This document shows, piece after piece, positions 6,229 through 62,511 of a stretch of DNA of 64,000 bases. This DNA is from Sulfobacillus thermosulfidooxidans DSM 9293 (GTDB taxonomy: Bacteria; Bacillota; Sulfobacillia; Sulfobacillales; Sulfobacillaceae). A program made the translations under genes and the position numbers. Within the stretch, counting starts at the first letter, position 1. Each line of letters opens with the position of its first letter. The notes beneath the pieces are model-generated. The model made no database searches. It was given only the letters and a program-made list of their open reading frames with translations, and was not told where the DNA came from. Location: assembly GCF_900176145.1 (NCBI RefSeq), contig NZ_FWWY01000001.1:191517-255516 (forward strand), read 5' to 3'.

Positions 6229-6618
6229 ATGTTTAACAAAATCATCTTGATTGGTCGGCTGACCCGCGATCCGGAATTGCGCTACACGCCTCAAGGAGTC
6301 CCTGTGGCCTCGTTCACTCTGGCGGTGGATCGCCCGTTCACGAATGCCCAAGGCCAACGGGACGCTGACTTTGTGGATTGTGTCGCGTGGCGAAAACTCG
6401 GAGAAACTGTGGGGAACCATTTAACCAAAGGCCGTCTTGTGGCCGTGGAAGGGCGTCTCCAAATTCGAGGCTATACCGCCCAAGACGGCAACAAGCGCCG
6501 CGTGGCGGAAGTGATTATCGACACCCTACGATTCTTGGATGCGCCCAAATCCTCCCCGTCTTCGGTCGCTGCTCATAATCATGAGGTGACGATTCCGCCT
6601 GACGATGTGCCCTTTTAG
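6229..6618 (+). CDS. ssb: Single-stranded DNA-binding protein
   Basis: A 129-aa OB-fold SSB: MFNKIILIGRLTRDPELRYT at the N-terminus, FVDCVAWRKLGE mid-domain, RLQIRGYTAQDGNKRRVAEV further on, and an acidic tip DDVPF that normally docks partner proteins. It is shorter than chromosomal SSB (about 150-175 aa), having a short linker, as is common for plasmid or phage copies. CAAGGAG precedes the ATG. It lies between two IS605-type terminal hairpins (6142-6168 and 6653-6688). It likely serves replication of this element with the primase and helicases at 48762-62511. Confidence 0.95.
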   Translation: MFNKIILIGRLTRDPELRYTPQGVPVASFTLAVDRPFTNAQGQRDADFVDCVAWRKLGETVGNHLTKGRLVAVEGRLQIRGYTAQDGNKRRVAEVIIDTLRFLDAPKSSPSSVAAHNHEVTIPPDDVPF

Positions 6619-35627: not shown

Positions 35628-35872
35628 TTTGTTGCGCACCGATCTCAGAACATCATCGGATAGAGATGGGGTCATAGCGCGATGGGCAATGGGGAATATG
35701 AGTTCGGCATTTCTCTTTGCGCCGTGTAGCTCTTTCAGTTCCCCCCACGAAAAAGACGTAATTAGGGTGGATGGCAGACATATTTTTTGTGATGAATCAA
35801 TTCCTGGCAATAAAAAACCATTCGGAAGTGATAAAATCAATGAAAAATAATTCAAGTAAGGATTTGACAAGA

Positions 35873-37159
35873 ATGTATCTTTCCGAGATCAAGTTAACAA
35901 ATTTTCGGAGTTTTAGAGAGACTGAAACGAAATTAAGTGAAATTGTCATCTTTATCGGGCGTAATGGAGAAGGTAAAAGCAATTTGTTGGAAGCGATCCG
36001 ATTCCTGCGTACCATAGCTACGTTTGGCATTGACGCGGGTATCCAAACAGTCGGAGGAGCAAAATATTTCGCACGATTAGAGGGAAATCAACCCCAGTTC
36101 CCCGTTAATGTATCTTTTCGTGTAGATTTTGACCCTCCTCTACATTTTCCTCAAGATCCTACCACAAGTTTGGATGCTGCAACGTATACTCTGACCATTA
36201 AAAACCCCAATAACACTCATAATAATGGAGTAAGTCTCAATTACGTATGGGAAGAAACTATTACTCTGGAAAATGTTCAGACGCGAGATTCGGCAGATAC
36301 ATCTCCTATTAGAATTATTGTCAGTCAATCGAGCAACGATCCTGATGCACCGGCTCAAGTGTTGAGCGAATCGCTAGTACGCACGTCTTCCCATGATAAA
36401 CTGTTATCAAAGCTCTTCCCGACCGATCAGCGCGTCTGGATCAACCATCAATGGGGATCCAATAGACCCGTCCAAATATCTCTTTTGCAATCCGTTCAAA
36501 CCTCCCCATTGAATTTTTGGCTGTCGGCCAACGTTTTTTTCTTTGATCCCGATCCTAATCAAGCTAAGAGAATCATTGACCCAATCGGACTATTAACCTT
36601 GACCGAAGACGGAAATAATCTTGCCGAGGTTATTCGGGCTTTGGAGCCGAATCAAATCGAACAACTGAACACCTACTGTCGCACACTCTTTCCTCGAATT
36701 CTGGGTATTGAACCTATGGATTTGGGTGATGGACGATGGACGTGGAGTCTAAGAGAACAAAACGGCAATACATTCCCTGCTCGATTTCTCTCTCCCGGAA
36801 TGGTTCGTGGAATTATCTTATTAGTCGCATTGGTACAAGCAACTGGTTCTGCTTGTTTAATTCTGGAAGAACCAGAACGGTTTCTCGATCCTTCTCTGTT
36901 GGCACCTTTGATGGCCATTATTCAAGACGTGGTTAAAACTCAAAAATGTCAAGTAATATTTACCACTCAATCTCCCGAGATTCTAGCGCACGTTAATGTA
37001 GATCGGGTCTATTGGATTCGTCGAGATGATGAATGGTCCGTTATTAATCATCCCGCAACCGATGAGCGATTAAGGGATTGGGTGCAAGACTTAGGTATTG
37101 CTAATCTTTACATCGATGATTTTATCGATACTGTAGTCAAGGAGAGACCCCGTGAATGA
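35873..37159 (+). CDS. RecF/OLD-type ABC ATPase of a probable two-gene defence system
   Basis: 428 aa. Walker A IGRNGEGKSNLLEA, signature-like FLSPGMVRGIILLV, Walker B CLILEEPERFLDP and switch QVIFTTQSPEIL: an AAA_15/AAA_21 ATPase of the OLD/RecF group. ATG 35873 is chosen because MYLSEIKLTNFRSFRE is the usual beginning; an upstream ATG at 35840 is possible. It overlaps the TOPRIM-like gene by ATGA. The pair is much AT-richer than its surroundings. PARIS (AriA/AriB) and related systems join such an ATPase to a TOPRIM protein; exact type undetermined. Confidence 0.75.
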   Translation: MYLSEIKLTNFRSFRETETKLSEIVIFIGRNGEGKSNLLEAIRFLRTIATFGIDAGIQTVGGAKYFARLEGNQPQFPVNVSFRVDFDPPLHFPQDPTTSLDAATYTLTIKNPNNTHNNGVSLNYVWEETITLENVQTRDSADTSPIRIIVSQSSNDPDAPAQVLSESLVRTSSHDKLLSKLFPTDQRVWINHQWGSNRPVQISLLQSVQTSPLNFWLSANVFFFDPDPNQAKRIIDPIGLLTLTEDGNNLAEVIRALEPNQIEQLNTYCRTLFPRILGIEPMDLGDGRWTWSLREQNGNTFPARFLSPGMVRGIILLVALVQATGSACLILEEPERFLDPSLLAPLMAIIQDVVKTQKCQVIFTTQSPEILAHVNVDRVYWIRRDDEWSVINHPATDERLRDWVQDLGIANLYIDDFIDTVVKERPRE

Positions 37160-37836
37160 AGTCAACGTATCAACAGCATAATATTTACTTTGAAGGTGGC
37201 GATGATTATTGTGTCATTAAATCGTTACTTTTATTCTTTTTAGGACAACCACTAAATCTCACCGACGATTTAGAAGACAAGCCAATTCACGAATTATCTT
37301 TTCAACATCCGAACCAGCAAAATGTCGTTATGACATTTATATTAGAGGGTTATGCAAACAACAAAACCTGGGCCCGGTGGAAAGAACGAATTAGTTCAAT
37401 GAATAAGAGAGGGATTTCGTATTTTTGGATTAAAGATACAGACTTCAAGACCAAGCCTTCCGAAAAAAAATTAAGCGATTTCACAAAAGATTTGGCAAAA
37501 AGGCTGAACGCCATAGAATGCAGAGTTATACCCGTTCAACCTGAAATTGAAGGATGGGTTTCGGCAGTGGCTATAGATCCCGATGTTCAAAACTCTATTT
37601 TCATGAACGATGAGCGAGGACTGCGTCAATTTAAACGAATAACACAACGTGAGCATACAGAAGATGTAACCAAAGAGCTATTGGACACGGTCATTGAGAA
37701 ATCATCCCAATATGCAAACCGTAAGGAATTTTTAACTGTTTGTGTCACTAAGGCAAATTGGGAAAATGCTAAAGAATATAATCGAACCTTGGAATATTTC
37801 TATAGTTTGTTAGAAAAAACTATATGTATCTTATGA
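37156..37836 (+). CDS. TOPRIM-like protein, partner of the ATPase
   Basis: 226 aa. IYFEGGDDYCVIKSLL gives the glutamate of a TOPRIM-type first strand, and SYFWIKDTDFKTKPSEKK supplies DxD about 75 residues on. This is the pattern of OLD-nuclease and DUF3226/DUF4435-like TOPRIM proteins. In PARIS-like systems such a subunit is a nuclease released on phage sensing. Start ATG lies in the ATPase stop. Family assignment is by motif only. Confidence 0.6.
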   Translation: MKSTYQQHNIYFEGGDDYCVIKSLLLFFLGQPLNLTDDLEDKPIHELSFQHPNQQNVVMTFILEGYANNKTWARWKERISSMNKRGISYFWIKDTDFKTKPSEKKLSDFTKDLAKRLNAIECRVIPVQPEIEGWVSAVAIDPDVQNSIFMNDERGLRQFKRITQREHTEDVTKELLDTVIEKSSQYANRKEFLTVCVTKANWENAKEYNRTLEYFYSLLEKTICIL

Positions 37837-49856: not shown

Positions 49857-49938
49857 CGTGGATCACTCCTTCCCACCACAATCCCGCTATCGCCATTTCC
49901 TTGACGATTTGCCCCCACGAAGGTCCGCGTTTAGCCAT
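49825..49938 (-). CDS. 37-aa ORF overlapping helicase end and primase start
   Basis: ATG 49938 overlaps the helicase stop by eight bases, and its TGA (49825) lies 32 bases inside the primase-like gene. It encodes MAKRGPSWGQIVKEMAIAGL plus WWEGVIHGAAWLYHLTH, a small amphipathic or hydrophobic helix. AAGGAAGG precedes it. It may exist for translational coupling or encode a real microprotein. Confidence 0.5.
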   Translation of the reverse strand: MAKRGPSWGQIVKEMAIAGLWWEGVIHGAAWLYHLTH

Positions 49939-52900
49939 GGCGCACCTTCCTTGCAGCCTGTCGGGGTAGGCGATCAATGAGCCACGAGGCTTCCCCTTTG
50001 GTCAACCCCTCAATCAGCGCCTCGGGTGTCCCGTGTTGACGCAACCACGCTTTTTGCTTGGGGGTCGCGGGGGCCAATTTCCACAAGGCATCCGCCAAGG
50101 CTTGCTGCGCGGCACGGGGCGGCGTGCCGAGCAGGTCGGCCCATCGGGTAGCCCGCCCCACGGTCCACGCTTGCAACGCCTCGCGATGGCGATCCAACAC
50201 CCACGACGCGGCCCATTTGGGTAGGGATTGTGCTTCGGATGCGGGCCAACCGAACTCTTGCAAGCGTTGCTGTTGAAGCGGCGTGCTCGGGCCGTCGGGG
50301 TTAATCATGCCAAACTGGACACATCGTGCGACGATCTCCTGCTGACTATCCGGATCGTCCGCGATTTCGGCCAATGCGTCGGCCAAATCCCGCCAGTCCA
50401 CACTCGGAGCCGCATCCTCGACTAGATCCGTAAACAAATCGGGCACGTGTTCGCTGTGGAGCCGATCAAGGGGCACGAGCTGCATCAGCCATTGTTCATC
50501 GTCGGTGGACAACCGAGCTTCGCGGGCCAAAGCCGTACTCACCCGGGTCCCAGAGACCAGGTCCCGTCGCAACCCCAGCAAATCGCGCACGGAGATAATT
50601 TTATGACGCCGGGTGTTGTCCGCAACGTCGATCAGAATCATCTGATCTTTGCCGGGGGCGGGGCGCGTCCCGCGCCCGACCGTTTGGGTAAACAGGGCCA
50701 GCGATTTGGTGGGACGAGCTAGTATGATGGTTTCGACTGTGGGTTCATCGAAGCCCTCACTATTTCCCATCACAGTGACCGTGCCATGCCGTCGCGTGAT
50801 AATATTGCCAGACGTTGTTCTCACACACCACACTCGCTCGGATTTCCAATCGGTCTCAAATTGCAGCGTATACTTTGACTTTCGATTGCTGATCCGATGG
50901 ACATCTTCACGCTCAATGGACAGTGAATATTGCGGAGACCATCCAGGAGGTATCGAGCGAACAGGTTTTAAGGACGCTCGATACCCTCGACAGACAGCAA
51001 TTGCTTGGAGCAGTTCGAGGAGTGCTCGGTGAGTTTTCGTAATGACGTAAGTTTGAGGTCGTAGGCGTCCGTCGCCATGATTTCCATCCGCGAGCCACAG
51101 TCCCTCAATCAGCGCCGCGAATTGTTCTTGAGAGAGTCCCCAGAGCAATGGGGAACCTTTTTTGTTTAAATAAGGTTCCAACGGAAAGAGGCCACGACGT
51201 TTTTGTGAACCAAATCCTGTGCCTCGAGGAAAGCTCCAAGACCAGTGTGCAACGAGATTGTCACCCGATGCTCGTTCTTGATAACGGCGACGAAAATCGA
51301 CATCCAATTGCGCAATCACGCCTTCAATCCACGCGATTATCCAGGCATTATGAACGTTTTCAACGATTTTGTACTCGATCCCGCCACTTAATAATCGGTT
51401 GGCTGAACCATCACCTAGCCAATACCCAATAAATCGGCATTCTGCGAGCGTCAGCTCCGATGGCGCTTTGTATCGCAATCCATATCGGACGTTAAATCGC
51501 CGCGTCGCTTCTTTAATCGATTCTTTGAACCCATATCCTTCTCGTTTGCGTAAGGTGTACGCATTGGCTGAAATCATGCGTTGATATTGTTGTGGAGATA
51601 AGTCGGGTGGTTGTTCTGGTTGGATATCTAACGGATCAGCTATCCCGGAAATTGGTAATTGAAGGGCGCGTCCGACAAGATCGCGGGCCGGGGCTTTTTT
51701 AAACTGTCCTTCGCGACTAGTCCGATATAAAAGCCGATGTCCTTCGGTTACACGGATGCTCCGATGCGGGGTTTCCAAGACCACCATACGTTCCCACCAC
51801 GCACGCGGGCGACGCACAATATCCAAGGGGGGTTCAAAGGTAATTTGACCGTTTGCCCAATTTGCTACGCGATGGGCAGGGGTCATCGCATCGATGCCCA
51901 CAAATCCCTCGCTCGTTAAGATTTCGGTCTCTTCGTCCAAGCAGAGCACGGCTGCATTAGTGACAATCCGCGTTGTTCCAGATCGCAACCGCGTCAACAC
52001 ATCTCGGCGCGCTTCAAGCGGCATGGTGCCGTCCACCGCTTCCGCGGCCAAACCAACACTTCGGAACGTTTGAGCTAAATCATGGGCATGTTGAACCCCG
52101 GCGGCAAATACAATCGCTTTGGTGCCCGGGGCGTGGGTTTGGTACGCGGATACAATCAGCGCATTCCGCTCGGACGAATTCAACACGCTTTGCAATTGCC
52201 CTTCCACAAAGTCCCCGCCCCGAGTCGGGACCGCATCGAGATCGGCCGATCCCTGCACGCGCACCGCTTGAATATCGACCAACCAGCCGTCTTGAATGGC
52301 CTCCCGAATGCCATAGCTATACACAATTTTGTCAAACACGGTCTCTAAACTCGTGAGATCGGTACGAAACGGTGTGGCACTCACGCCGAGCAAGAGATCC
52401 GGCTGCAGATAATCGAGAATTTTTCTGTAGGACGGCGCGGGGGCGTGATGGCAGTTGTGAACGACAATGCCAGCCTGTCCCACTGAGTACGTATGAGGGA
52501 AAGCCACATCTAAGTTAAATACGTCGACCGGGGTTGCCATACGCATGGGCATCGCTTCTACCACGTTGACCCAACCCCTTCGACTCAAAACCGAATCGCC
52601 AGGTTGTAAAAATTCGGCTTCAATCCATCCTTCGCGGGTATAAAATGGGTGATTGCACGTACAACGAAGAATTTCGGAGGTGTTCAGTGTGATTTGCATT
52701 AACCCCGTGGTTGACCGGTGATGCGTCATGATGACAGGCACGGATACCCAACGGTGGGTATCGGGATCAAATGTGCGTAAAATCTCGCCCGGCCGCCACC
52801 TTTCAATCGGCCGTCCATCGACCAATGTCCCCGCCGGAAAACATTCATCCACCACCACGGTGGCAAACCGATCCCGGGGCCACCGATGTAACCGCCGAGC

Positions 52901-53197
52901 ATGGAGCGATTGCACGCTCGCCACCACGACCGGGGCTTCCCATTGATCTTCGGGTCCCTTGACGATGCCCACCGACGCCTCCGGCCACACGTGCTGGATT
53001 TTGTCGGCAGCCTGACGAACGAGTTCGTCGCGATGCGCCAGGACCAACGCCGTTCCGCCCTGACGACGTAGTAATTCGGACAGCACGATGGTCTTCCCTG
53101 TACCGGTAGCCATGCTCACCACCGGCCTCTTTACCCCTTGACGATGGGCTTGCGTGATAGCATTCAAGGCGGCTTCCTGATAGGGACGCAGTTCCAT
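49931..53197 (-). CDS. SF2 DEAH-type helicase interrupted by two inteins
   Basis: 1088 aa precursor, 564 aa after splicing. ATG 53197 is chosen because GGAGGAGGGG lies just upstream and MELRPYQEAALNAI is the usual start. Motifs: Q/I region with MATGTGKT (residues 29-36), motif Ia LAHRDEL, II VVVDE-[intein]-CHH, III LLGVSATPFR, IV-V IVTNAAVL-[intein]-SEGFD, VI QTVGRGTRPAPGK. It resembles plasmid/phage DEAD-box translocases of the UvsW/RecG-like type I-restriction helicase group. The C-terminal 200 residues are helical. Works with SSB and primase in replication or recombination. Confidence 0.92.
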   Translation of the reverse strand: MELRPYQEAALNAITQAHRQGVKRPVVSMATGTGKTIVLSELLRRQGGTALVLAHRDELVRQAADKIQHVWPEASVGIVKGPEDQWEAPVVVASVQSLHARRLHRWPRDRFATVVVDECFPAGTLVDGRPIERWRPGEILRTFDPDTHRWVSVPVIMTHHRSTTGLMQITLNTSEILRCTCNHPFYTREGWIEAEFLQPGDSVLSRRGWVNVVEAMPMRMATPVDVFNLDVAFPHTYSVGQAGIVVHNCHHAPAPSYRKILDYLQPDLLLGVSATPFRTDLTSLETVFDKIVYSYGIREAIQDGWLVDIQAVRVQGSADLDAVPTRGGDFVEGQLQSVLNSSERNALIVSAYQTHAPGTKAIVFAAGVQHAHDLAQTFRSVGLAAEAVDGTMPLEARRDVLTRLRSGTTRIVTNAAVLCLDEETEILTSEGFVGIDAMTPAHRVANWANGQITFEPPLDIVRRPRAWWERMVVLETPHRSIRVTEGHRLLYRTSREGQFKKAPARDLVGRALQLPISGIADPLDIQPEQPPDLSPQQYQRMISANAYTLRKREGYGFKESIKEATRRFNVRYGLRYKAPSELTLAECRFIGYWLGDGSANRLLSGGIEYKIVENVHNAWIIAWIEGVIAQLDVDFRRRYQERASGDNLVAHWSWSFPRGTGFGSQKRRGLFPLEPYLNKKGSPLLWGLSQEQFAALIEGLWLADGNHGDGRLRPQTYVITKTHRALLELLQAIAVCRGYRASLKPVRSIPPGWSPQYSLSIEREDVHRISNRKSKYTLQFETDWKSERVWCVRTTSGNIITRRHGTVTVMGNSEGFDEPTVETIILARPTKSLALFTQTVGRGTRPAPGKDQMILIDVADNTRRHKIISVRDLLGLRRDLVSGTRVSTALAREARLSTDDEQWLMQLVPLDRLHSEHVPDLFTDLVEDAAPSVDWRDLADALAEIADDPDSQQEIVARCVQFGMINPDGPSTPLQQQRLQEFGWPASEAQSLPKWAASWVLDRHREALQAWTVGRATRWADLLGTPPRAAQQALADALWKLAPATPKQKAWLRQHGTPEALIEGLTKGEASWLIDRLPRQAARKVRHG
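50762..51943 (-). other. Intein 2 in the helicase, with LAGLIDADG homing endonuclease
   Basis: 394 residues (precursor residues 419-812). Begins CLDEETEILTSEGF (block A), has VTEGHRLLYRT (block B), two LAGLIDADG helices FIGYWLGDGS and ALIEGLWLADGN, and ends RHGTVTVMGN before Ser. C1, terminal Asn and Ser+1 needed for splicing are present; the penultimate residue is Gly instead of His. Insert point is helicase motif V. Confidence 0.9.
52454..52843 (-). other. Mini-intein 1 in the helicase DEAH box
   Basis: 130 residues (precursor residues 119-248), no endonuclease. CFPAGTLVDGRPIERW is block A, CTCNHPFYTREGW block B, DVFNLDVAFPHTYSVG block F, and it ends VVHN before Cys. It splits motif II between DE and CHH, so the helicase cannot hydrolyse ATP until spliced. 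Confidence 0.92.
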
Positions 53198-53198
53198 A

Positions 53199-53552
53199 TC
53201 AGATCCCCTCCTCCGAATGCGTGACCGCCCACTGCAAAATGGACCACAACGCGGTACTCCACGATGCTGATCCACGAGCTTGGTTCACCCATGCATTAAG
53301 CGAAGGGGGTAAATATACCCACATCATGCGATCCCGGATCAGGGATTCGCGGGGCGGCGCGGGTGGCAATTGAGGAACTGACGACGCGATAGTCCACCGG
53401 ATCACCGCTTGGCGCATCCATTCACTGAGCGTTTGTTCGGACTGTCGGGCATGCATTTCGATCATCTCGTAAAGCTGTTGAGAGACATACACAGGATGAC
53501 GTACAGTGTTCCCAGGGGCAGACCCCTCTTCCCGCACAGTAAGCGTGACCAT
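53199..53552 (-). CDS. Small ribbon-helix-helix-like protein
   Basis: 117 aa from ATG 53552 (AAGGAGG upstream). HPVYVSQQLYEMIEMHARQS, then EQTLSEWMRQAVIRW is an Arc/MetJ-like strand-helix-helix pattern, followed by a Pro-rich linker and a second similar unit (MMWVYLPPSLNAWVNQARG). Possibly an operon regulator or partition-type DNA binder. Its TGA is one base before the helicase start region. Confidence 0.55.
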   Translation of the reverse strand: MVTLTVREEGSAPGNTVRHPVYVSQQLYEMIEMHARQSEQTLSEWMRQAVIRWTIASSVPQLPPAPPRESLIRDRMMWVYLPPSLNAWVNQARGSASWSTALWSILQWAVTHSEEGI

Positions 53553-55324: not shown

Positions 55325-56128
55325 TTACGCGAGCGTTGGGAACCCAAACCGGTCGGCACACACGGCAACGAACGGGCACCCGGAGCATCCGTAAGCGCTG
55401 TAGGGATTGGGCACAATGCGGTCCGGATCGTCTGCTTGTTCTTGCGCCCACGCCAATTGCTGGCGGACGCGGTCGATGCTCTGCTCTGTCACCGGGACCG
55501 GGATCGTGAGGGTTTGCGGGGTTTTCGTTCGAATCAGGTAGTCCAGCGCAAACGGCGCCGTTTCCCCGGTTTTTTGCGCCCACGCCAGGACGTACAGGGG
55601 CGCTTGCAGGGATTTGCGGATCACGTCGGTCCCATTCGGTGTACGTTTGGTGGTTTTAAGGTCGCGAATTTGACCTTGTTCGTCGATCACGTCGATCACA
55701 CAAGTCACCGGGATGCCGTCGATGTCCGCTTCCAGTCGCTGTTCCGTGGCTTGCGGCGTTCCGATTGCCGGGCGAATCGCGCTGTCCCAGAGGTCGGTCA
55801 GAGGCAGCCAGCTCTCGGGGTCCACGCCGACGGCCTCGTCCGCCGCGGCCAGTGCCGCTTCCTCGCGGTCGGCACCTTGCAATCGCGATTCCACAAAGCG
55901 GTGGACCGCTTTACCGATGGCCGCATCGGGACGGGATGGCCATTCAAAGTCATCCGGGAGATCAAAAACGCCGGTACTCCATGCGCCACGGGCGGGACAC
56001 ATGAGCCAGTCGACCAAGCGGGTTGGCGACCAGTTGCCGCAGGGCAACGGCCCGGTGGCGTACGATGCGGTATCGGTTGCCAAAATGTCTTCGAGGGTAA
56101 AGCGGTCGGACGCTTTGGAGGGAGTCAT
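55325..56128 (-). CDS. RecB/Cas4-like PD-(D/E)XK nuclease
   Basis: 267 aa. GKAVHRFVESRLQ (motif with His), VTCVIDVIDEQGQIRDLKTT (Asp...DLK core: D, then D-x-K), QAPLYVLAWAQ (QxxxY), and Cys at WLMCPARG with CSGCPFVAVC at the C-terminus, so a 4Fe-4S cluster as in Cas4/AddB is likely. Expected to resect or process DNA ends during recombination or replication. Not a CRISPR gene: no array or other cas gene is seen. Confidence 0.85.
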   Translation of the reverse strand: MTPSKASDRFTLEDILATDTASYATGPLPCGNWSPTRLVDWLMCPARGAWSTGVFDLPDDFEWPSRPDAAIGKAVHRFVESRLQGADREEAALAAADEAVGVDPESWLPLTDLWDSAIRPAIGTPQATEQRLEADIDGIPVTCVIDVIDEQGQIRDLKTTKRTPNGTDVIRKSLQAPLYVLAWAQKTGETAPFALDYLIRTKTPQTLTIPVPVTEQSIDRVRQQLAWAQEQADDPDRIVPNPYSAYGCSGCPFVAVCADRFGFPTLA

Positions 56129-57448: not shown

Positions 57449-57478
57449 AGAGATATGACAAATACGGGAGGATGCTAT

Positions 57479-59089
57479 GTGAAAGAGCAGTCGTTTGGAG
57501 TCAAACTTCAAGCCATCCGCAAGCGTTTGGGATTGAGCCAGACGGATTTAGCCAAGATGATCGGCACGACGCAAAACAACATCAGTCGTTATGAGCAAGG
57601 ATTGCGACGCCCGAGTTTTGACACCTTAAAAAGGATCTCGGATGCTCTGAATGTGTCCATGGACGAACTTTCGGACGGTGCCATTATCGAATTCAATCGA
57701 AACCCGATCGGAGTAACATCCCCATCATGGGCATCCTTCGTGTTTTCGTTGCAAAACGCTTATCAATGGACGACAGAGCAGTTGGCCCAACAGCTACAAA
57801 TTCCTTTGGATGAACTCTTGCCTCCCCGCTCCACCGGACGCCCATCGGTGCAGGCCGTGCAAGCAATCGCTTCGTTTTTGGGCGTTTCTCAATTATCAAT
57901 AGCCATTCTCGCGGGATACATGGATCGGGATACCACTCTCGATGCCATCATAGATCTCATGCAGTGGCCGTGGCGGAAACTCGCTCCCTATCATTCTGAC
58001 TGGTACAACCGTCATGGAGGAGCTTTTTTGCGGGCGTGCCGCACCGCGCAAGATCAGTCGATAGATACGGTAGTCCATCGGTGGAATACTTACTGGGATC
58101 GGTCTCTCACAATTGATGATTGGAACCTATTGGAAAGTCAGGGTGTCTTGCGCACTCCGTGGGACTCTCACCATCCCACGGCTCGATTAGATGAACTGCC
58201 CGGAATTTGGCTCTGGGCCTTGGTCATGGCGTGTGAAACGATTCCTGGCTCCTTGTACTCGGATGTGGTGGGACTAACCGCTCTGTTAGGCCGTATATCC
58301 ACGAAAGGCCCCCTCCGTCAAGTGTGGTTTACTGGGAATCGTGATTATGAGATGTTGATAGCGGCGTTTGATATAACCCTCGACAAAGCGCATGACACGC
58401 TAGACGTGGTATCTTTTCGTGAGCGAGTTCGGACAGCACTGGAGTCAACTCCAGCTTCAGTTGCCCCTTCCACTACCCCACCTTTGCCCGTTCGGTCGAT
58501 TCCTCTTCTCGGTCGCGTCGTCGCCGGCATTCCGGTCGAAGCGCAGGCCGATCAGCAAGGCGAACTCCGGATTCCCCAGGAAGATCCCGGCGATTTCGCC
58601 GTCATCGTGCACGGGGATAGCATGGTGCACGCGGGCATTACCGAAGGCGATGTCGTCATTGCGGAACAGGTGCAGCCCGGTCAGGACGTGCCCTCTCAGT
58701 CCCTGGTGATTGCCCTCGTGAACGGGGAGCAAACGCTCAAATGGCTTATGCGCGATACGGATGGGACGTGGTGGCTGCGCGCGGCCAATCCGCAATATCC
58801 CGATATCCCGCTAGATCCCCAACGCGATCGCGTGGTGGGACTAGTGCGCGGGATTCAACGGCGTCCCCCGGCCCCATCATCGGCCTCATCCCGTCCGGTC
58901 GCATCGTCCGATTCCTGGGATGATCTGACCCCGGATCAACGGGACCTGCTCGCCGCCCAACAACAGATGATTGCCGAGCAACAGCAGCTTCTTCAAGCTA
59001 TGCTCGTCCGTTTTCGTCGGATGAACCAGGCGGCGCGATCGCGCGCATCGCGGCCCGATGACAACGATCCCCAGGATCCCCCGTTTTAA
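57479..59089 (+). CDS. XRE-HTH and S24-peptidase repressor with long middle region
   Basis: 536 aa from GTG 57479 (GGGAGG at 57466-57471). HTH: LQAIRKRLGLSQTDLAKMIG, TTQNNISRYEQGLRRPS. A 250-residue middle, including a second weak HTH-like part (AYQWTTEQLAQQLQIPLDEL). C-terminal LexA/CI-type peptidase: cleavage Ala-Gly in GRVVAGIPVEA, Ser in IVHGDSMVHAGITEGDVVI, Lys in GEQTLKWLM. Then a Gln-rich coiled coil (LLAAQQQMIAEQQQLLQAML). CI repressors are about 230 aa, so this one is more than twice that. Likely self-cleaves on RecA-ssDNA and couples DNA damage to element activity. Confidence 0.88.
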   Translation: MKEQSFGVKLQAIRKRLGLSQTDLAKMIGTTQNNISRYEQGLRRPSFDTLKRISDALNVSMDELSDGAIIEFNRNPIGVTSPSWASFVFSLQNAYQWTTEQLAQQLQIPLDELLPPRSTGRPSVQAVQAIASFLGVSQLSIAILAGYMDRDTTLDAIIDLMQWPWRKLAPYHSDWYNRHGGAFLRACRTAQDQSIDTVVHRWNTYWDRSLTIDDWNLLESQGVLRTPWDSHHPTARLDELPGIWLWALVMACETIPGSLYSDVVGLTALLGRISTKGPLRQVWFTGNRDYEMLIAAFDITLDKAHDTLDVVSFRERVRTALESTPASVAPSTTPPLPVRSIPLLGRVVAGIPVEAQADQQGELRIPQEDPGDFAVIVHGDSMVHAGITEGDVVIAEQVQPGQDVPSQSLVIALVNGEQTLKWLMRDTDGTWWLRAANPQYPDIPLDPQRDRVVGLVRGIQRRPPAPSSASSRPVASSDSWDDLTPDQRDLLAAQQQMIAEQQQLLQAMLVRFRRMNQAARSRASRPDDNDPQDPPF

Positions 59090-59138
59090 CGGGAGACACC
59101 GTTTTGCCCATCTTGATAAGGAAAAGGAGATGACCTCC

Positions 59139-59945
59139 GTGGCGTTCACGACTCCCATCTTCGTCTTTGATTTGGAAACCATCCCGGACTGGACCCGTTT
59201 GCAGGCCGCCTCGCCCCCCAGCGAGGCACCTGGCGAGGCAGATGCCCCCGCATCGGCCCCTACTCGGATGCCCAAACCCGCTTTTCATCAAATTGTCGCC
59301 ATTGCCGGCGCGTGGATTGCCCCCAATGGCGCGCTCCGCCAACTCCGGGCGCTAGGGGAACCTGTCTGGTCGGAAGCCGAACTCGTGCGCGAAGCCTTCC
59401 GGATCATTAGCGAAGGCCGGCCCCGGCTGGTGGGATGGAATTCGCACGGATTCGATCTGCCGGTCTTGGTCTATCGGGCCATGGTGCATGGCATCGCCGC
59501 GCCGCAGTTTTATGTCTGGGGCGAACCCTACCACGGCTATCGCAAACGCTTTGACGAAGACAATCATCTCGACTTGATGGATGTCTTGAGCTTTTATGGT
59601 TCCAGTCCCCGCTTGAGCCTCCATGAAATGGCGCGGGCCTTGGACATTCCCGGCAAACTGGACATGGATGGAAGCCAGGTCTGGGATCGGTATCAAGCGG
59701 GCGATCTCGCCGCGATTCGAACCTACTGTACCGCCGACGTCCTGACGACCGCGCTGGTCTTTGGGCGGTACGCCTATCACCGCGGCTGGTGGAGCCCAGA
59801 GCAGATGACCACCTGGGAAAATTCCGTCGCGGCATGGCTCGATGCGCAAACCGATCCGGTGTGGATTCGGTTCCAAGCGCAATGGCGCCCGATGACCGCG
59901 ACCGTGATGGGGCGGGCCCCGTGGGATGCAGAGACCTCGGTCTGA
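59139..59945 (+). CDS. PolB-type 3'-5' exonuclease domain protein
   Basis: 268 aa. GTG 59139 is preferred for spacing from AAGGAG (59124-59129). Exo I TPIFVFDLETIPDW, Exo II RLVGWNSHGFDLPVLVYR, a DLMDVLSFYG segment and Exo III YCTADVLTTALVFGRY correspond to the predicted 3'-5' exonuclease family related to the PolB proofreading domain (DNA_pol_B_exo2). Stand-alone proofreading or end processing is expected. 49 bases after the repressor, so probably the same transcript. Confidence 0.85.
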   Translation: MAFTTPIFVFDLETIPDWTRLQAASPPSEAPGEADAPASAPTRMPKPAFHQIVAIAGAWIAPNGALRQLRALGEPVWSEAELVREAFRIISEGRPRLVGWNSHGFDLPVLVYRAMVHGIAAPQFYVWGEPYHGYRKRFDEDNHLDLMDVLSFYGSSPRLSLHEMARALDIPGKLDMDGSQVWDRYQAGDLAAIRTYCTADVLTTALVFGRYAYHRGWWSPEQMTTWENSVAAWLDAQTDPVWIRFQAQWRPMTATVMGRAPWDAETSV

Positions 59946-60165
59946 TTATCAGCGGACTCCGAAGCAAGGACAGTCATTCTCTTGGGAAGTCCTTGTCATC
60001 ATTTCTCAAGGCTCTAGAGGCTCACGTTGCCGAGAGGCACTGGCCTCACCCTGTCAGATAAGAAGTGTGGTATAGCAATCGGTACGAAAAGCCTTATTTC
60101 GCCTCATAGGGGTGTTGAATCGATCCCTTCTACGGTAAGAAAAAATCCTGCTGGAGGTGTCCTGT

Positions 60166-62511
60166 ATGTTAGATTCTGTGAAACCTTATTGGGAAACCTT
60201 CGAAGTACCTGTGGCATGGGACTCGTTTCGCGAACCTCATCCTGTATTTCCATCTGACGCGTGCAAGCATGTCAAATATTATTGCCCGGAATGTAGAGGC
60301 GCTGTGCAATTACGATCCGGCTCCAAGATCCGCCCTCATTTTTACCACGTTAATCCGAATGCCACGTGTTCTAGCGAAGGGATCATTCATCAGGCGGCCA
60401 AGGCGCTACTGCTGTATTGGATAAATTCGGGGCATCCCCTGCGCATTGCTTATCATTGCCCTCAGTGTCATCATGAAGGATCCTATTCCTTGCCTTTTCC
60501 AAATGGACTTACGGCTATCCAGGAATACCAAGTAGAGCCTTATCGCGGCGACGTTGTTTTAGTGGACACTCGCGGACATCCCCACGGCGATTTGGAAATT
60601 TTATCCTCGCATCCGGTTGATGACCAAAAAGCCACTTATCTGCCAGTCCCCTGGGCAGAATTTGAGGCCGAACTTATTTTAAAGTGCCCAACCGTTCTGT
60701 GGCCGATTCGATCAGGTGGTGGATGGCCTCAACCCACCGATTGTGACCATTGCCGCCCCCATTGGATTCCGATCGACCCTGCTGTCCGGATGATTCGCGC
60801 AAAGTGCCCACGTTTTAAGGCCCACGATGTTCACGAAACCATCTGTGCCAATTGTCGTTTTCATCAGCGTATCCATGAGGGGTCTGACGAAATCCCGCAT
60901 GTGCATTGCTCGTTTTTACCAAGCGAAGCACACAAGTGGAAAGACGAAACAGCGAAAATGCTGCAAGAAATTCAGACCATTACCTATCGTCATCGGAATC
61001 ACTGGAAGTGGTCGTATCATCGTGGGGAACGTGTACGTGGCAAGAACGCCCCAGAGGTGGTCGAGCTCACCAAAGAACAGCAGCAGATCATCGCTGCCAC
61101 GGATTCCATCCTGCGTGTGACCGCCTATGCAGGCACTGGAAAGACGTTTACGCTTTCAGAAATGGTAAAAAATAAACCTCACTCTCAAATTCTTTATCTC
61201 GCGTTTAATAAGGCTATAATAAAACGGGCCGCTACCCAGATGCCAAAACATGTTACGCTAAAGACTATCCACTCCTTAGCCTATAATCAGTTTAAGAGAA
61301 GGAAGTTCAAGGTCGAGGAACTCACGGTACCTACGTTGCTACGAACCGTACGATTTGATTGGATAGAAAAAAACCTTCGCAATCATCACGCCCATGCCAT
61401 CATTGATACCCTGCATCAATTTTGGGCGTCCGCCGAAAATGAGTTGACGTCTGCAATGTTACCAGATTACGCCAATGATACCACTGTGTTCGCCCCTGAT
61501 CTTATTTTGCGAGATGCCCGTCGTATATGGGGCATCATGCAGGATGTGAATGACCACCGGATTCCCATCACCTATGACGGATATCTCAAGCAAATCGCTG
61601 TGAGGGCTCCAAAATTGCCATATGACATTATCATTGTCGATGAAGTCCAGGATATCACGCCAGCGGCCCTTCATTGGATTCTTCGCCAGAAACATGCTCA
61701 ACAAGTGTACGTCGGCGATCCCTTTCAAGCCATTTATCAATTTCGCGGAGCCATTAACACTCTGAATCATATTCCCGTCACCCATACCTATACGTTAACG
61801 GAATCTTTTCGCTTTGGCTCGCACATTGCGGGACTAGCCTCCAAATGGATTACTAGCCCAGATGCGCCAGCGTTACCGATTGCGGGTCGGGGTCCAACTC
61901 TAAAGAGCCGGGAACCATGGCAAGAGGTGATTCTAGCCCGCACAAATTGGGGAGTTTTACGGATGGCATTGCAAATTATTTCCCAAAATCCCAGGGCACG
62001 ATTAGTTTTTCAAGATGGGTTGGAGCGATATCGAATGAATGAGATTGCCAAAATATGGCGCATCTGGCGGTATGGACAACAAGAAATGACGTCTCTTGGC
62101 TTATTTAGCCGTTTTGAGTCTCTCAAGAAGACTGCCCACGATACACAGAACGTTCAATACATGCAATGGTGCGAAATTGTCGAAAGTCTTGGAAACCAGA
62201 TACCACAGATTTTCCAGACGATTCGACAAGCCACCGTGTCAGGCGAGGGGTCATTTCTCCTCACCACCATTCACCGGGCCAAAGGTCTTGAGTTTCCCAA
62301 AGTCGTCCTCGGAGATGATTTGCCTGATATAGGCACGGTAACCATTGACGGAAATCCCTATTTAACCACATCCGCAGAGGAGCGAAACTTGTGGTACGTT
62401 GCCATTACCCGCGCTCAAGAACAACTGGTACTTCCGTCCCGCGAGGTCTATACTCAAATGTTTTCTGCCAAAGGATGGGCAATTCAGGATGCGGATTATA
62501 TCCGTGGATAG
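60166..62511 (+). CDS. CoiA-like nuclease domain fused to UvrD-family helicase
   Basis: 781 aa from ATG 60166 (GGAGG at 60153-60157). Residues 1-200: zinc knuckle YYCPECRGAVQLRSG, RPHFYHVNPNATCSSEGIIH, QAAKALLLYWI and a second CPQC, the competence protein CoiA pattern with its DxxxE-type core (YRGDVVLV...HGDLEIL). A second Cys/His part is at 200-265 (CDHC; CANC). From 310: VTAYAGTGKTFTLSEM, LAFNKAIIKRA, TIHSLAYNQF, IIIVDEVQD, VGDPFQAIYQFRG, LLTTIHRAKGLEFPKV, YVAITRAQEQL, a complete SF1A helicase of the Fbh1/UvrD kind. Likely DNA uptake or recombination processing. Confidence 0.85.
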   Translation: MLDSVKPYWETFEVPVAWDSFREPHPVFPSDACKHVKYYCPECRGAVQLRSGSKIRPHFYHVNPNATCSSEGIIHQAAKALLLYWINSGHPLRIAYHCPQCHHEGSYSLPFPNGLTAIQEYQVEPYRGDVVLVDTRGHPHGDLEILSSHPVDDQKATYLPVPWAEFEAELILKCPTVLWPIRSGGGWPQPTDCDHCRPHWIPIDPAVRMIRAKCPRFKAHDVHETICANCRFHQRIHEGSDEIPHVHCSFLPSEAHKWKDETAKMLQEIQTITYRHRNHWKWSYHRGERVRGKNAPEVVELTKEQQQIIAATDSILRVTAYAGTGKTFTLSEMVKNKPHSQILYLAFNKAIIKRAATQMPKHVTLKTIHSLAYNQFKRRKFKVEELTVPTLLRTVRFDWIEKNLRNHHAHAIIDTLHQFWASAENELTSAMLPDYANDTTVFAPDLILRDARRIWGIMQDVNDHRIPITYDGYLKQIAVRAPKLPYDIIIVDEVQDITPAALHWILRQKHAQQVYVGDPFQAIYQFRGAINTLNHIPVTHTYTLTESFRFGSHIAGLASKWITSPDAPALPIAGRGPTLKSREPWQEVILARTNWGVLRMALQIISQNPRARLVFQDGLERYRMNEIAKIWRIWRYGQQEMTSLGLFSRFESLKKTAHDTQNVQYMQWCEIVESLGNQIPQIFQTIRQATVSGEGSFLLTTIHRAKGLEFPKVVLGDDLPDIGTVTIDGNPYLTTSAEERNLWYVAITRAQEQLVLPSREVYTQMFSAKGWAIQDADYIRG

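Follow-up and report, generated by a model that had tools for sequence, protein, structure and literature searches.

What would a single protein do that carries a CoiA-like domain at one end and a UvrD-type helicase at the other, and is such a protein really encoded at this locus? The first-pass annotation had proposed a fusion of a CoiA-like nuclease domain with a UvrD/Fbh1-type helicase that handles incoming or damaged DNA, and knew of no described system of this kind. Here, we consider in turn the gene itself, its two halves, its relatives and its neighbours, and the functions that these suggest.

The fusion gene

The gene lies at 60166..62511 on the forward strand of the window, by which we mean the whole 64,000-nucleotide stretch that was analysed (contig positions 191517–255516). 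The ORF listing and translation give 781 amino acids in a single intact ORF, from the ATG at 60166 to the stop at 62511, and a GGAGGTG ribosome-binding site is read at 60153–60159, ahead of the ATG; the mechanically assigned GTG start at 60157 falls within this site. Together with the domain models described below, the intact ORF bears out the central claim of the first-pass annotation, that a CoiA-related PD-(D/E)XK domain is fused to an Fbh1/UvrD helicase. The fusion was met nowhere else in the genomes, plasmid, phage or viral records searched, as might be the case if an error of assembly or reading had joined two genes. However, the frame is uninterrupted over 784 codons and has one ribosome-binding site, the gene is single-copy in a genome of 3.86 Mb (2 contigs, 99.9% completeness), and a frame-preserving join by chance is unlikely, which makes an artefact highly improbable.

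A CoiA homologue with an altered active site

By sequence comparison, the N-terminal part is a CoiA homologue but not a canonical CoiA, and belongs to a separate branch with the motif E-[IV]-x-x-[T/S]-H and no E-x-Q. Residues 34–70 (60265..60375, forward strand), a zinc-binding domain with CPEC...HFYH, score 38.9 bits with the Pfam model CoiA_N (PF25164), above its cut-off of 26.3. At E ≤ 1, neither CoiA_nuc (PF06054) nor CoiA_C (PF25166) has a match in the fusion, whereas canonical CoiA (L030) matches all three models. When the variant alignment was compared with canonical CoiA by HHalign, the probability was 99.5% (E 2.5e-22) with CoiA_N included and 95.7% (E 8.7e-9) with CoiA_N left out, and because of this second value we extend the homology to the nuclease part.

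The AF2 model of residues 1–300, built from 11 sequences, reaches a pLDDT of ~80–95 over residues 12–185. Its core (residues 70–190; 60373..60735, forward strand) is of the PD-(D/E)XK type and has the order alpha-beta-beta-beta-alpha-beta: a helix at 70–87, strands at 116–119, 130–133 and 139–146, a helix at 153–158, and a strand at 163–167. After the first helix, a Zn-ribbon-like insert occupies residues 93–108 (C98, C101). Restriction-endonuclease-like or PD-(D/E)XK proteins form the top structural matches in VIA-align, led by 3ijm_B (Z 6.5 over 94 residues at 3.2 A) and followed by 3hrl (5.9), 9y1l (5.5), 3r3p (5.2) and DrdV (5.1), all of these being modest Z values. Foldseek of the N-terminal model against the PDB returned no match at E ≤ 0.001, and for this reason the fold call rests on the VIA-align matches, the order of elements and the HHalign comparison to CoiA. 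As a control, canonical CoiA was modelled with AF2 (pLDDT 92.6); its elements follow one another in the same order but the insert is missing, and PD-(D/E)XK nucleases again ranked high. The CoiA core fold, on whose presence the first-pass annotation had staked its reading, is thus found in the N-terminal domain by AF2, structural comparison and HHalign together.

The fusion shares with CoiA the CoiA_N zinc domain, the core fold and an E...D...E order of residues, and differs in having E-x-L, H149, K155, the zinc ribbon and a helicase. In an 11-sequence alignment (A3), E120, D129, E144, H149, K155, W163 and E165 are invariant, and the first five of these are candidate active-site residues (60523..60630, forward strand). 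We defined the variant branch from stand-alone plasmid relatives, found by similarity, and from 17 GTDB contigs that a motif search had brought up. Since the search motif included several of these residues, their invariance among the GTDB hits is partly built in, and the independent evidence comes from the plasmid relatives, which were found by similarity alone. In addition, the cyanobacterial relatives L057 and L058, and also L202, do not have K155, so that only E120, D129, E144 and H149 are general in the wider branch. The position two residues after E144 is L146 in the fusion and varies across the branch; in canonical CoiA this position holds the catalytic Q of E109-x-Q111, which is invariant in the canonical set. 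As PF06054 and PF25166 are unmatched and E-x-Q is replaced by E-x-L, this domain is a putative nuclease. Of the first-pass claim of a CoiA-like nuclease domain, then, the CoiA_N domain and the homologous core hold, and the domain is no canonical CoiA.

Given L146, the N-terminal domain could be catalytically dead or could use another residue, and because the usual Q/K is a leucine, we treat its nuclease activity as a candidate property. A dead domain would serve the helicase as a zinc-stabilised module for binding DNA or protein. This is a serious minority reading, and the main rival on chemistry: the leucine at a position that varies in the branch and the unmatched PF06054 favour it, while the five residues invariant in A3 suggest that selection still acts on a site of active-site type. 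Between the two domains lie further putative zinc ligands that the first-pass annotation had not listed, namely C193xxC196 and a third cysteine cluster, CP(214)-CANC-C(248) (60742..60909, forward strand).

A complete Fbh1-type helicase

The C-terminal half (residues 297–757; 61054..62436, forward strand) is a helicase of the Fbh1-type SF1A group. The Pfam models UvrD-helicase (PF00580), AAA_19 and UvrD_C (PF13361) all exceed their cut-offs at residues 301–756, among solved structures, F-box DNA helicase 1 is the closest in sequence (phmmer against the PDB, E=2e-52, residues 297–757), and PHROG 1967, "DNA helicase", is matched at 2.7e-75. As the first-pass annotation had claimed, the set of SF1A motifs is complete (I, Ia, Ib, II, III, IV, IVa, V and VI), with AYAGTGKT at 320–327, VDEVQD within 489–496, VGDPFQAIYQFRGA at 516–529, TESFRFG at 545–551, TTIHRAKGLEF at 700–710 and YVAITRA within 742–751. 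Judged by these motifs, helicase activity of the fusion protein is very likely. Fbh1 and the Fbh1-like helicases of plasmids and phages (PHROG 1967) have the whole SF1A core in common with the fusion, at ~30–38% identity and with the DGYLK and SFRFG signatures. The fusion differs from Fbh1 in having a nuclease-type domain at its N-terminus and no F-box, for which Pfam gave no match at E ≤ 1; a RecB nuclease domain of the PF12705 type was likewise unmatched in the fusion at E ≤ 1.

Helicase relatives without the N-terminal domain are numerous on mobile DNA: at the thresholds applied, they amount to 1,884 records from plasmids, 257 from phages and 330 viral contigs. In most phage Fbh1-like relatives whose start falls inside the fetched locus, the motor begins ~25–65 residues from the N-terminus. 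Two viral contigs (L164, L175) have an Fbh1-like helicase within a reading frame of >3,100 codons that is open at both locus ends, and the Fbh1-like helicase of Vibrio phage RYC (L060:3058-5712) has an apparent intein inside motif III. In the ML tree, the helicase of the window groups at 100/100 with two helicase-only proteins, one from the same genus (L033) and one from the same family (L032), on a branch that is long in comparison with theirs (1.49 vs 0.53 and 0.72). The L033 helicase adjoins a DnaG-type primase and a RecA-like AAA_24 ATPase.

Origin of the fusion and its stand-alone relatives

Stand-alone variant-CoiA proteins of bacteria, annotated as "competence protein CoiA family protein" (e.g., WP_004578771; L102–L118, L201), share the motif E-[IV]-x-x-[T/S]-H...K with the fusion; they have no helicase, and some carry a different C-terminal zinc domain. 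One of them, a 247-residue protein from the same class (L201), has its parts in the order of residues 1–250 of the fusion, i.e., CoiA_N, variant core, CxxC, and the CP...CxxC...C cluster (BLASTP 5e-18). Because L201 mirrors residues 1–250, the simplest account is that two whole genes were fused in this lineage. The best reading of these comparisons is thus a recent whole-gene fusion of a stand-alone variant-CoiA protein to a whole Fbh1-type helicase. The sister helicase L032 also carries, at its C-terminus, a cysteine cluster like the third one of the fusion.

No second fusion was found among 398 genomes of the phylum, 154 of the class and 41 relatives, nor in the plasmid and phage records, the best 80 of the 330 viral contigs with helicase relatives, or the 17 GTDB contigs. 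Among the viral contigs, the whole fusion protein had no relative and the strict variant-CoiA motif had no match. As the searched sets are samples, we regard the fusion as rare and not as proven unique; with a single known instance and a long branch, it could be an oddity of its lineage. A link of the Rosetta-stone kind was considered in a phage, where a variant-CoiA-like gene lies two genes upstream of an Fbh1-like helicase (L160:2231-5527), and was treated as weak because sister contigs carry a different gene at that place.

Several stand-alone relatives occur in defence neighbourhoods. In two Alteromonadaceae loci, L109 (2897–7378) and, by sequence, L115 (5913–8000) with the same arrangement, a variant-CoiA gene lies next to GajA/GajB in divergent orientation (E 9e-249 and 5e-194 in L109), and this gene is possibly a Gabija-associated one. 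Others have a BsuBI/PstI restriction-modification pair (L106) or a type IV restriction enzyme (L108) in their vicinity. In L107, the variant-CoiA gene follows, after 48 bp, an SF1 helicase that is cut by the locus edge and resembles the RT-associated NERD-helicase. In addition, a CoiA-domain protein was among the anti-phage systems selected in E. coli (PMC9519451). On one hand, these observations speak for the fusion as a Gabija-like or restriction-like defence enzyme for the degradation of invading DNA, in which the helicase would be the sensor or motor and the variant-CoiA domain the effector. On the other hand, no GajA partner or modification gene adjoins the fusion, its PADLOC matches are generic UvrD/GajB, the sister helicase L033 sits among replication genes, and several stand-alone variant-CoiA genes have ordinary or plasmid surroundings. 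The fusion gene has an exonuclease and an HTH-S24 repressor as its typed neighbours, and the frames listed after it include no gene of GajA size. In terms of function, defence is the main rival and is possible, although we think it unlikely; it is not mutually exclusive with a dead nuclease fold or with the role in DNA processing that we prefer.

Relation to known systems

Both halves of the protein are of kinds already known, and the fusion and the CoiA branch with its altered active site are apparently undescribed in the literature searched. In that literature, which was mostly without subscription journals, we found no paper that treats CoiA and UvrD together, in agreement with the first-pass annotation, and CoiA is unmentioned in papers on polyvalent proteins (PMC5512222), jumbo phages, BREX and Dnd systems. 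Among the closest known systems are Dna2/Bad and AddA/RecB, which, like the fusion, join a PD-(D/E)XK-type domain to an SF1 helicase in one chain. However, their nuclease is of the RecB type, a different family from that of the fusion; in addition, Dna2/Bad have an Fe-S cluster in the nuclease (PMC7430649), and Bad is a 5'->3' motor. Gabija (GajA and GajB) also combines a UvrD-type helicase with a nuclease, and it has variant-CoiA genes beside it in Alteromonas, but the fusion is without GajA and its nuclease is of another fold, in one chain with the helicase. Polyvalent proteins of phages and conjugative elements have several domains and are transferred together with the DNA of their element; in the fusion, a multi-domain protein that is probably element-borne, none of their signature domains was seen.

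The literature searched does not establish what CoiA does biochemically. The fusion to a helicase suggests that a CoiA-type domain acts where DNA unwinds, and offers one protein in which to test this. The variant branch, some members of which adjoin Gabija or restriction genes, may be regarded as a candidate family of defence or recombination nucleases. It is also conceivable, though we would not expect it, that this is the first CoiA-type helicase-nuclease, from an unnamed branch in which E120, D129, E144, H149 and K155 replace D...E-x-Q as the active site and in which stand-alone members pair with SF1 helicases in defence, the two partners having here been merged into one polypeptide.

Genomic context and proposed role

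The fusion gene is surrounded by genes of DNA metabolism. Upstream, after a gap of 220 bp, lies a 3'-5' exonuclease of the PolB-exo2 family (59058..59945, forward strand; PF10108, 1.9e-57), whose ORF is overlapped by the end of a gene for an HTH and Peptidase_S24 (LexA/CI-like) repressor (57455..59089, forward strand; PF01381, PF00717). A RecB/Cas4-like PD-(D/E)XK nuclease, separate from the fusion, is encoded on the reverse strand (55325..56128; PF12705, 6.3e-17; phrog_69 exonuclease), and an SSB gene (6229–6615; PF00436), which may belong to the same element, lies 54 kb from the fusion gene. These correspond to the DNA-damage-type repressor, the RecB-like nuclease and the SSB that the first-pass annotation had reported. 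A gene with a weak LigD-primase match and one for a RadD-like helicase are also near the fusion, on the opposite strand. Before the start of the window, at 20–40 kb (L044, contig 151517–171516), there are a T2SSE-type and a TraG-type ATPase, because of which a large mobile element is likely; this suggests a conjugative or secretion module on the element that carries the fusion. Scans for promoters and terminators gave about the level of shuffled sequence, and matches to an SOS-box-like pattern were fewer than expected by chance.

This context bears on whether the protein replaces CoiA in natural transformation and handles incoming single-stranded DNA. The CoiA homology of the N-terminal domain points that way, the competence pole of B. 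subtilis recruits CoiA (YjbF) (PMC2727465), and the genome has no other CoiA_N gene. However, the fusion is without CoiA_C and E-x-Q and sits among mobile-element DNA genes, and none of the other genomes sampled from the genus has the variant-CoiA domain. A role in transformation, which the first-pass annotation had raised, finds no support in this analysis, and we consider it quite improbable.

Rather, we favour, with a probability of about one half, a single-chain helicase-nuclease, made up of a variant-CoiA part (~residues 1–250) and an Fbh1-type part (~residues 297–781), that serves DNA processing and recombination of the mobile element. Along single-stranded DNA, the helicase half would move in the 3'->5' direction, unwinding branched DNA or stripping proteins off it. 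At the single-strand/double-strand junction exposed by the motor, the N-terminal PD-(D/E)XK module, with its zinc elements, would bind the DNA and probably nick or trim it. Much better support exists for the motor step than for the cutting step. Eukaryotic Fbh1 disrupts Rad51 filaments (PMC4148199), and by analogy, clearing a recombinase from single-stranded DNA is one plausible job for the motor of the fusion. The protein would work as part of the element's DNA-processing and recombination module together with the adjacent exonuclease and S24 repressor, with which it may be co-regulated.

Two loci in the window gave side observations. The RadD-like helicase on the reverse strand (49931–53275) has two apparent inteins, with Hint at residues 157–274 and a weak LAGLIDADG match near residues 720–794. 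At 35771–37836 on the forward strand, an AAA_21 ATPase with best PADLOC matches to HEC-01A/AriA-like proteins is followed by an unassigned gene for 226 amino acids, and may form with it a two-gene defence pair.
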